Origin: Sphingopyxis sp. LC81
GTDB lineage: Bacteria; Pseudomonadota; Alphaproteobacteria; Sphingomonadales; Sphingomonadaceae
NCBI RefSeq assembly: GCF_000756375.1
Contig: NZ_JNFD01000001.1
Coordinates: 124,001-188,000 of the forward strand
DNA length: 64,000 nt
Direction of reading: 5' to 3'
The position numbers and the translations under genes were made by a program. Positions 41,795-45,328 of this stretch are shown here, one piece after another. The number at the start of each line of letters is the position of its first letter. Within the stretch, counting starts at the first letter, position 1. A model generated the notes under the pieces. The model saw nothing but the letters and a program-made list of their open reading frames with translations, did not search any database and had not been told where the DNA came from.

Positions 41795-42817
41795 ATGACA
41801 CAGCATCTGATGCACGATGGCGCACTGCACGATGGCGCGGGGCATCTGATCGACCCCGGTTATGCGACCCGCGAGGTCCGCCGCTATGACCGCGCGGCGA
41901 TCGGCGCGGAGCCGGTGCGCATCAAGGAGTGGGATTATTATTGCGTGCTCGATGCCGATTTCGGGCTGGCGCTGACCGTCGCGGACAATGGCTATGCCGG
42001 GTTTCTCGGCGTGTCGTGGATGGATTTGCGCGGGAAGAGCTTCGTCAATCACGGCGTGCTGATCCCCGAACCGATGGGCGCCATGGCGCTTCCGCCCAGC
42101 GCCGACAGCGGCGACATCGTCCAGGCGCGCGATGGCCTCGAACTGGCGTTTCGGCACGAGCCGGGCGGGCGGCGGCTCACGGTCCACGCGCCGGGCTTCG
42201 ACGATGGGCGCGGATTGTCGGGGGAAATCTGGCTCGACCAGCCCGCCATGGACCGGATGGTGATCGCGACGCCCTTCGCCGACGATCTCCACGCCTTTTA
42301 CTATAACCAGAAGATCAACTGCATGCCGGCGCGGGGACATATAAAGATCGGCAATGAAGGCTATGATTTTACGCCTGAAAGCGCTTTCGCGGTGCTCGAC
42401 TGGGGCCGCGGTGTCTGGACCTATGACAATGTCTGGTATTGGGGCTCGGCATCGGGGCTGGTCGATGGTCGCCCGTTCGGTTTCAACATCGGCTACGGCT
42501 TTGGCGACACATCGGCGGCGAGCGAGAATATGCTGTTCGTCGACGGCCGCGCGCACAAGCTGGACCAAGTGGTCTTCCACATGCCCGATGGCGCGCCCGA
42601 CAGCGCACCGTGGCGTTTCACCAGCAACGACGGCCGGTTCGAACTGGAATTCACGCCCGCGGTCAATCGCTGGGCAAAGGTCGATGCCGGGATGGTCAAG
42701 ACCGAGCAGGATCAGCTGTTCGGCTGGTTTTCGGGCACGGTCGTCCTCGACGACGGCACGCCGATGACGGTGCGCGACTTGCCCGGATTTGCCGAGAAGG
42801 TGTGGAACCGCTGGTAA
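41795..42817 (+). CDS. DUF2804 family protein
   Basis: A 340-residue soluble protein with no signal peptide or membrane segment. It shows the DUF2804 pattern of aromatic-rich beta strands (WDYYCVLD, FYYNQKIN, WDWGRGVW-like LDWGRGVWTYDNVWYWGS). The fold is probably a lipocalin-like double beta barrel; the function is unknown. ATG at 41795 follows GGGGAG at seven bases, favoured over the GTG three bases earlier. It is followed by a 241-base gap that belongs to the ccrM promoter. Confidence 0.8.
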   Translation: MTQHLMHDGALHDGAGHLIDPGYATREVRRYDRAAIGAEPVRIKEWDYYCVLDADFGLALTVADNGYAGFLGVSWMDLRGKSFVNHGVLIPEPMGAMALPPSADSGDIVQARDGLELAFRHEPGGRRLTVHAPGFDDGRGLSGEIWLDQPAMDRMVIATPFADDLHAFYYNQKINCMPARGHIKIGNEGYDFTPESAFAVLDWGRGVWTYDNVWYWGSASGLVDGRPFGFNIGYGFGDTSAASENMLFVDGRAHKLDQVVFHMPDGAPDSAPWRFTSNDGRFELEFTPAVNRWAKVDAGMVKTEQDQLFGWFSGTVVLDDGTPMTVRDLPGFAEKVWNRW

Positions 42818-42869
42818 GCACCCGGCGCGACGCGGCCGCGCGCACGAAAGTGAAATTTTTTTCGCCGGT

Positions 42870-43021
42870 GAGTCTTCATCGCCACACCACCAGTGGTTGA
42901 GTCTCCGAGTCGTGGCCGACTCCATATGGTGTGTCAGACTCGTTTCGTTCTCATCACGTTAACCAGTTAGAGAGGCGGAATCCTTAGACTCCTGCGCTTG
43001 ACGGCGGACTCCGCTGGACTC
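42870..43021 (+). promoter_or_regulatory. ccrM promoter region with nine GANTC methylation sites
   Basis: Nine GANTC sites lie within 152 bases, at 42870, 42899, 42907, 42918, 42937, 42978, 42987, 43007 and 43017 (first base). About one in 280 bases would be expected at this composition. Two of them form a hairpin GAGTCG-TGGC-CGACTC (42907-42922). A CtrA-like half-site TTAACC is at 42959. The downstream gene encodes the methyltransferase that modifies GANTC, so direct feedback or cell-cycle control by methylation is likely. Confidence 0.75.
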
Positions 43022-43055
43022 ATCAGGGCCTTCTTACGAGCAAGGAACGGGGTGA

Positions 43056-44197
<1,142 letters not shown>

Positions 44198-44198
<1 letters not shown>

Positions 44199-45328
44199 TG
44201 TTTCAGCCGCTGACCAAGCCCGACTTCGGCGCCGCGTCGGCGGATGCGCAAATCTATTGCCGCCCGACCTGCTTCGTCGACCGCCCGCACGAACTCGACG
44301 ACGATTGCCTGCGGATTGCCGACTCTATGGTCTGGTTCGCCGCGTGGCATGTCAGCCTGCGCGACGGTCTGACCGTCAAATCGGCGATCGTTCCGGTTCC
44401 CGAATGGGATGGCTGGATTGCGGCCATGCCCGACGCATTGGCGCAAGCGGCAAATGCGCAGCGCGCGGGCGTCGCGCGGCCGCGCGGTGTGCTGCAACTC
44501 GGTGAGCGGAAGATCCGGCTGAACGAGCCGCAGCTCATGGGCATATTGAACGTCACGCCCGACAGTTTCTCGGACGGCGGCAAGCATGTCGATGCCGTCG
44601 CCGCGGCGGAGGCCGGCTTCGCGATGGGCGCTGCGGGGGCGGCGATCATCGATGTCGGCGGCGAATCGACGCGTCCCGGCGCACCGCTCGTCTGGGAAGG
44701 CGACGAGATCAAGCGCATCGAAGGCGTGGTGTCAGCGCTCGCGCGGGGCGGTGTCGCGGTGTCGATCGATACGCGCAAGGCCGCGGTGATGGAGGCGGCG
44801 CTCGCCGCCGGCGCCCGGATCGTCAACGATATTTCGGCGCTGCGCTACGACGATCGCGCGATGGAAGTCGTCGTGCACGCGGGCTGCCCGGTCGTGCTGA
44901 TGCACGCGCCCTCGGCGAAGAGCGACCCGCACGAGGGCGGCGATTACGCGCATATCCTGTTCGACGTCTACGACATGCTCGCCGAGCGCGTCGCGGCGTG
45001 CGTCGCCGCCGGGGTCGACCCGGCGAAGATCATCGTCGATCCGGGGCTCGGCTTCGGCAAGGGGGTCGGGGACAATCTGGCGCTCATCAATGGGCTCGCG
45101 CTATTCCACACCTTGGGCTGCCCGATCCTGTTCGGTGCGAGCCGTAAGCGGATGATCGGCGCGCTCGACAACGAGGCGCCCGCAGATCAGCGGCTCGGCG
45201 GCACGGTGGCGCTGCATTATCAGGCGGCGACGCAGGGCGCGCAGTTGCTCCGCGTCCACGACATTGCGGAAAACCGGCAGGCGCTCCGCGTGTGGCGCGG
45301 GCTGCGCGACGCGGCGCTGACCGTTTAA
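44198..45328 (+). CDS. folP: Dihydropteroate synthase with an N-terminal extension
   Basis: A 376-residue protein. The DHPS core begins near residue 113 with LMGILNVTPDSFSDGG and continues with the second signature GGESTRPGA, giving the pterin- and pABA-binding site of folate synthesis. The first ~110 residues are an extension with no recognised motif, containing CRPTCF. ATG at 44198 overlaps the ccrM stop by one base, so folP is translationally coupled to ccrM. Its stop overlaps the stop of the convergent SDR gene by four bases. Confidence 0.93.

Follow-up and report, generated by a model that had tools for sequence, protein, structure and literature searches.

Nine GANTC sites in front of ccrM in Sphingopyxis suggest a methylation-responsive promoter of the methyltransferase gene

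In Sphingopyxis sp. LC81, the gene encoding the GANTC adenine methyltransferase CcrM is preceded by nine of the enzyme's own target sites within 152 bp. The sites are conserved in the genus, follow a fixed geometry at their promoter-proximal end and form a cluster without equal in the sampled part of the genome. The array is probably a methylation-responsive, autoregulatory promoter dependent on sigma70 and, as we infer, on GcrA. Methylation-dependent autoregulation of ccrM, as proposed in an earlier note on this DNA, is still the reading that the sequence comparisons suggest as the best, now with two sites in the core promoter and an upstream block containing a dyad.

The array and its conservation

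The window, that is, the whole 64-kb stretch of DNA that was analysed, contains an open reading frame whose assignment as ccrM is borne out by a nearly full-length match to PDB 6pbd, "Modification methylase CcrMI", covering residues 27-371 including the C-terminal domain (E 7.5e-153). Against the NCBIfam CcrM model the protein scores 606 bits, below the model's cut-off of 830; in the eight best named relatives, all of them Sphingopyxis, it is 89-98% identical. The nine GANTC sites claimed for the 152 bp upstream were all found (Table 1). About 0.21 sites would be expected there at the genome's own density of 1.40 GANTC per kb (397 sites in 284 kb, made up of the window and a further 220 kb). 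The earlier note had put the excess at 16 times the expected density; the excess stands, but the figure is too low, as the array exceeds the genome's own density about 42-fold. The 64-kb window as a whole is poor in GANTC, with 89 sites found compared to 338 expected from dinucleotide shuffles, in agreement with the under-representation of GANTC described for Alphaproteobacteria (PMC3973325). The densest other 152-bp stretch in the 284-kb sample holds four sites (L172:15720).

Table 1. Features upstream of ccrM in the window, with their conservation in Sphingopyxis and other Sphingomonadales
Feature	Coordinates (strand)	Sequence	Position from ATG	Context and conservation
Upstream conserved block	42867..42954 (+)			sites 1-5, CCACACCACCA, dyad with free 14-nt center, TTTCGTTC; alignment A1
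Site 1	42870..42874 (+)	GAGTC	-189	within 2 nt in 73/79 Sphingopyxis
Site 2	42899..42903 (+)	GAGTC	-160	left arm of dyad (TTGAGTC); 74/79 Sphingopyxis
Site 3	42907..42911 (+)	GAGTC	-152	genus-level site; 60/79 Sphingopyxis
Site 4	42918..42922 (+)	GACTC	-141	right arm of dyad; 73/79 Sphingopyxis
Site 5	42937..42941 (+)	GACTC	-122	70/79 Sphingopyxis; weaker across the order
CtrA-like half-site	42959..42963 (+)	TTAAC		71/79 Sphingopyxis within 3 nt; 30/72 in the order, anywhere in -130 to -70
Site 6	42978..42982 (+)	GAATC	-81	20 nt upstream of TTGAC; 69/79 Sphingopyxis
Site 7	42987..42991 (+)	GACTC	-72	11 nt upstream of TTGAC; 64/79 Sphingopyxis
-35 element	42998..43002 (+)	TTGAC		invariant in 72 other Sphingomonadales and 79 Sphingopyxis
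Site 8	43007..43011 (+)	GACTC	-52	-35/-10 spacer, +9 from TTGAC; 61/79 Sphingopyxis within 2 nt
Site 9	43017..43021 (+)	GACTC	-42	+19 from TTGAC; overlaps first base of predicted -10; 74/79 Sphingopyxis within 2 nt
Predicted -10 hexamer	43021..43026 (+)	CATCAG		17-nt spacer; deduced from the +19 geometry; lacks the final T
ccrM	43059..44198 (+)			379 aa, GANTC adenine methyltransferase (beta-class)

GANTC counts before ccrM in related genomes had been named both as a check on the proposal and as what might refute it. The sites proved to be strongly conserved, each occurring in 60-74 of 79 Sphingopyxis promoters. Within 200 bp, 39 of these promoters hold nine GANTC, 30 hold eight and 10 hold four to seven. 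The genus set comprised 80 genomes, including that of the window, of which 79 had a ccrM upstream region; G036 gave only a weak match. The start codon was estimated in two of the 79 promoters (L158, L159), L006 and L031, lying on contigs of equal length, were treated as the same, as were L028 and L032 on like grounds, and sites were counted with a positional tolerance of 2 nt. Site 1 does not vary across the 64 rows of alignment A1, not even at its middle base, whereas site 3 is not conserved in the 72 other Sphingomonadales aligned. Fortuitous clustering, for which nothing but the shortness of the motif could be adduced, is ruled out by the Poisson probability of the array, about 2e-12 or 2.5e-8 at three times the genome density (both based on the average and not on the intergenic density of GANTC), and by the conservation in 79 genomes of the genus; we regard it as practically out of the question.

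Two further elements had been pointed out within the array. A hairpin was proposed at 42907-42922; the inverted repeat is present in this genome, but GAGTCG-N4-CGACTC is retained exactly in only 18 of the 79 Sphingopyxis promoters, and of 64 GANTC pairs with this spacing 40 are complementary. The hairpin was rejected as a functional element for its poor conservation and, to judge from these comparisons, is probably incidental. It is highly improbable that this repeat or the wider dyad acts as an RNA hairpin in the transcript: although inverted repeats are present and long complementary arms can be seen by eye in some single relatives, RNAalifold predicted no consensus pair in 64 sequences, a search of Rfam over 42000-44600 gave one sub-threshold match only, located elsewhere, and the conserved promoter is situated downstream of the block, quite apart from the low number of exact repeats. 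The CtrA-like half-site is present as reported and is kept in the genus (Table 1). A full CtrA site, counted as TTAA-N7-TTAA only, was found in none of the 79 Sphingopyxis and none of the 72 order promoters.

A core promoter with a fixed GANTC position

Alignment with 72 other Sphingomonadales loci (the order set, L039-L110) separates a core promoter, TTGAC-N4-GACTC-N5-GACTCA, from the upstream block. It was recognized by this comparison and not by a generic sigma70 consensus scan, which gave no promoter here. The first T of TTGAC is followed, at a distance of exactly 19 nt, by the start of a GANTC site in 79 of 79 Sphingopyxis, in 50 of 72 other Sphingomonadales and in 37 of 76 loci sampled across the class, where the geometry is represented in 32 of 68 families and is missing in 39 loci. 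Five control palindromes were never found at +19 in any of the three sets, except for a single TGNCA in the order set (1/72). Class loci with the +19 site have A at +24 in 37 of 37 cases and T at +28 in 36 of 36 complete cases; with a 17-nt spacer, the -10 hexamer thus reads C-A-N-N-N-T in all 36 complete class hexamers, its first base being the last C of GANTC. The final T is absent in Sphingopyxis and often absent in the order set. The GANTC in the spacer begins at +9 in 63 of 79 Sphingopyxis; among the 37 class loci with the +19 site, 31 have a spacer GANTC in the range from +7 to +11.

Within 379 kb of the window's genome, TTGAC-(13 to 15)-GANTC turns up at a single place, ccrM, compared to about 1.8 occurrences expected (0.6 per offset), which only shows that the geometry is not common. 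With a sequence model of the core promoter, ccrM was the sole hit in its own genome at E values up to 10 (150 of 633 candidates scored). The same model yielded five strong hits, all at ccrM, in twelve chosen genomes, five with and seven without the geometry, the remaining hits being weak (E 0.13 or more).

Of the 37 class loci that show the geometry, 18, from 14 families, have TTGAC at a distance of 35-37 nt from the ATG, and a leaderless ccrM mRNA is therefore predicted for them (L178-L180, L187, L191, L195, L197, L215, L221, L232, L235-L237, L240, L241, L250, L256, L263). In the window, the predicted transcription start is near 43033, which would leave a leader of about 26 nt. If this start is right, the predicted leader is free of GANTC, as there is none between 43022 and 43059.

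Evidence bearing on GcrA

GcrA binds m6A-modified GANTC and stimulates open-complex formation with sigma70 (PMC7403470, PMC3667746), and its binding to the m6A promoters of Caulobacter (ctrA P1, podJ P2 and mipZ) depends on methylation (PMC3667746). In Caulobacter, starts under cell-cycle control with a GANTC in the -35/-10 interval switch on 40-60 min into the cycle, the site being located at -28/-29 in ctrA P1 and at -24 in podJ P2 (PMC4287350). By the core geometry described above, the GANTC of the spacer would begin about 25-28 nt ahead of the predicted transcript start. The action of GcrA on m6A promoters, together with a spacer distance near that of ctrA P1 and podJ P2, led us to propose a GcrA-assisted promoter. 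Control of ccrM by GcrA has already been predicted in PMC7987155, where ccrM is listed as a core GcrA target in many of 13 alphaproteobacterial orders and as lost in Caulobacterales.

The genome encodes a GcrA homologue (G000:C21), a 231-aa open reading frame that scores 86.5 bits against PF07750 and matches the GcrA chains of PDB 7ye1 (E 9.8e-31) and 5yiu (E 2.1e-15). Two GACTC sites 20 nt apart are located about 155-180 nt upstream of this gcrA frame (L268:891-895 and 911-915). Across the class, the presence of gcrA, defined by PF07750, is not associated with the +19 geometry: 29 of 37 loci with and 33 of 39 without the geometry come from positive genomes, counts that may include profile misses. 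The eight gcrA-negative genomes with the geometry gave no match above the family cut-off even when E values up to 10 were admitted. The extended GcrA motif YGAKTCK is matched by four of the nine array sites and by neither core site (8, 9), compared to 24 of the 80 other GANTC sites of the window; for B. subvibrioides, no preference for the extended motif is reported (PMC7987155). The +19 geometry would stand even if a reader other than GcrA were at work.

The upstream block

The dyad formed by sites 2 and 4, TGAGTC-N14-GACTC, has a center that is free in sequence and nearly fixed in length in the 64 rows of alignment A1. Flanks outside GANTC, CCACAC and TTTCGTTC, are conserved in the same alignment; TTTCGTTC (42943-42950) follows site 5 in the genus, and the order keeps mainly its GTTC. 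In the 72 other Sphingomonadales the middle base is G in 71 at site 2 and C in 71 at site 4, and at site 2 it is kept more strictly than A (58/72) and T (55/72); in a minority of the order the conserved element is therefore not a CcrM site. No second good copy of the block was found in its own genome with either a sequence model or BLAST: the best other BLAST match is 18 nt long (E 0.72), and the model returned the locus itself on both strands, as the dyad would have it, and one weak match (E 0.6). Among 118 sampled order genomes the block was detected almost only in one family, the Sphingomonadaceae: of the 36 genomes possessing it, 35 belong to the window's family and a single one, with a weak match, to another; 82 genomes were without it at that threshold, 62 of which are not itemized, so that misses within the family are not countable. 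In L176 of the same family, one GANTC site only was counted because the block lies about 370 nt upstream of the match there.

Other motifs were noticed upstream of ccrM. A GTTC-N7-GTTA pattern seen by eye in the Sphingopyxis alignment brought LexA into consideration; it was set aside, as its spacing, judged by eye, varies among relatives. Of the 72 other Sphingomonadales, 33 have a perfect DnaA box (TTATCCACA or the complement of it) before ccrM, among them L039-L042, L051, L052, L057, L063 and L077, and in several of these 33 it sits in the dyad center; the box occurs in none of 79 Sphingopyxis and in six of 76 class loci. DnaA control of ccrM has been predicted mainly where CtrA sites are missing (PMC2877005).

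The block, from -192 to -105, may instead serve as operator for a conventional dimeric transcription factor with the half-site TGAGTC, methylation being a passenger there and only the core pair mattering for it. We consider this rather unlikely, although much in the block is compatible with it. The middle bases are fixed while N is mostly A or T elsewhere in the genome (298 of 397 GANTC sites of the 284-kb sample), the middle base of site 2 is stricter than the A and T that CcrM requires, and the free center of near-constant length, the conserved flanks, the single copy and the near restriction to one family are what such an operator would display. Arguing against it is the GANTC-rich DNA before ccrM outside the family, where the sites are arranged differently, so that density itself seems to be kept while the anatomy turns over. 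Moreover, CcrM should methylate the sites of the block in this genome unless they are shielded.

GANTC richness before ccrM across the class

In 76 class loci outside the family, the 300 bp before ccrM contain a mean of 3.76 GANTC compared to 0.51-1.08 for seven control palindromes of equal composition; because the start codons were set by rule, some of these stretches contain coding DNA. Six of the 76 loci have no GANTC in the 300 bp, and in 50 of 68 families the mean is at least three. From 315 class genomes with a match, 82 loci were taken, mostly one per family, from which L173-L176, belonging to the window's family, and L192 and L247, without a DPPYN frame, were excluded; the start codon was the ATG nearest to 30 codons before DPPYN. 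To judge from this excess across the class in other arrangements, the abundance of GANTC in front of ccrM is probably ancient, and the layout of the upstream part has changed over time. Among the GANTC sites before ccrM, the form TGANTCA accounts for 57 of 285 in the class (upstream regions L177-L267) and for 30 of 405 in the arrays of the order set, with a background of 6 of 388 in the window's genome.

High density at the gene's own promoter could also mean that CcrM itself is the regulator, dwelling on the array and blocking RNA polymerase until the sites are methylated, or being titrated by them. The array has the highest local target density in the sampled genome and its sites extend across the -35/-10 region, which speaks for this reading. 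However, it would not account for a GANTC placed exactly at +19, for N bases that are fixed or for the dyad, and re-methylation is described as distributive (PMC3667746); regulation by CcrM in this way is improbable.

Proposed mechanism

We favor, with modest confidence, a control region of ccrM that responds to methylation through a GcrA/sigma70 core and a methylation-sensitive operator and is shut off by full methylation. The core would be a sigma70 promoter with TTGAC, a 17-nt spacer holding one CcrM site, and a -10 of the type C-A-N-N-N-T. The second CcrM site shares its last C with the -10, which would therefore be weak by construction, and GcrA most likely makes the promoter fire when methyl groups are present on one or both strands. 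Upstream, four oriented GAGTC sites specific to the family, two of them in the dyad, would serve as the methylation-sensitive operator, to which a putative dimeric or oligomeric reader would bind according to the methylation state and shut the promoter once CcrM has methylated all sites. Replication would render the nine sites hemimethylated at once and thereby open a period of ccrM expression that CcrM itself would close. We chose shut-off at full methylation because it would yield a bounded pulse and is in keeping with the reported dependence of Caulobacter ccrM on hemimethylation (PMC2217572).

A wider view, which we put forward as a tentative possibility, is that much of the Alphaproteobacteria possesses a dedicated "self-reading" ccrM core (TTGAC-N14-GANTC-A-N3-T, often leaderless), to which the Sphingomonadaceae added the four-site dyad block as an m6A counter reset by replication. 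If this is true, ccrM would be a sensor of its own genome-wide work. Most of what is known about how CcrM is restricted to one stage of the cell cycle comes from Caulobacter, in which ccrM is driven by CtrA. Should many Alphaproteobacteria instead read methylation at a -10 that contains the target, feedback by methylation may be the older rule and control by CtrA an exception to it.

Comparison with known systems

Some methylases of restriction-modification systems, such as that of CfrBI, are controlled by methylation of their own promoters. The ccrM array resembles them in having the target site inside the methylase's own promoter and differs in the number of sites and the upstream dyad, and in that CcrM is a solitary cell-cycle methylase. 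The ccrM promoter and leader of Caulobacter carry two GANTC sites. There, CtrA is reported to activate ccrM from hemimethylated DNA, expression depends on the methylation state (PMC2217572), and the CtrA site is TTAA-N7-CTAA (PMC3751295). By contrast, the promoter described here has a TTAAC half-site in place of a full CtrA site, and its predicted leader contains no GANTC; its architecture therefore differs from that of Caulobacter. The earlier note had suggested an autoregulation tighter than in the model species; what the sequences show is another kind of promoter, and not merely a larger version of the Caulobacter one.

In a search of openly licensed papers, the array and the +19 rule were not found described, which is no proof of novelty. 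The pertinent part of PMC2877005 counts GANTC before cell-cycle genes and draws no conclusion there on control by methylation. For ctrA of Sphingomonadales, up to five GANTC in 300 bp upstream are reported (PMC8116508), a maximum exceeded by the nine in 152 bp before ccrM. The regulon of PMC7987155 likewise includes ccrM as a GcrA target, on the basis of extended GANTC motifs upstream; its probability of regulation ignores the location of the sites, and its regulon section does not describe the array, the overlap with the -10 or the spacing rule.

There is also a likeness to ctrA P1 and podJ P2 of Caulobacter, in which a GANTC occupies the -35/-10 spacer and is about as far from the transcript start as is predicted here (PMC4287350). 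Unlike the Caulobacter GcrA promoters, the one before ccrM has two core sites (at +7 to +11 and at +19), one of which shares a base with the -10, and a multi-site upstream block; the binding of GcrA is predicted here, and the gene controlled is that of the methylase itself.
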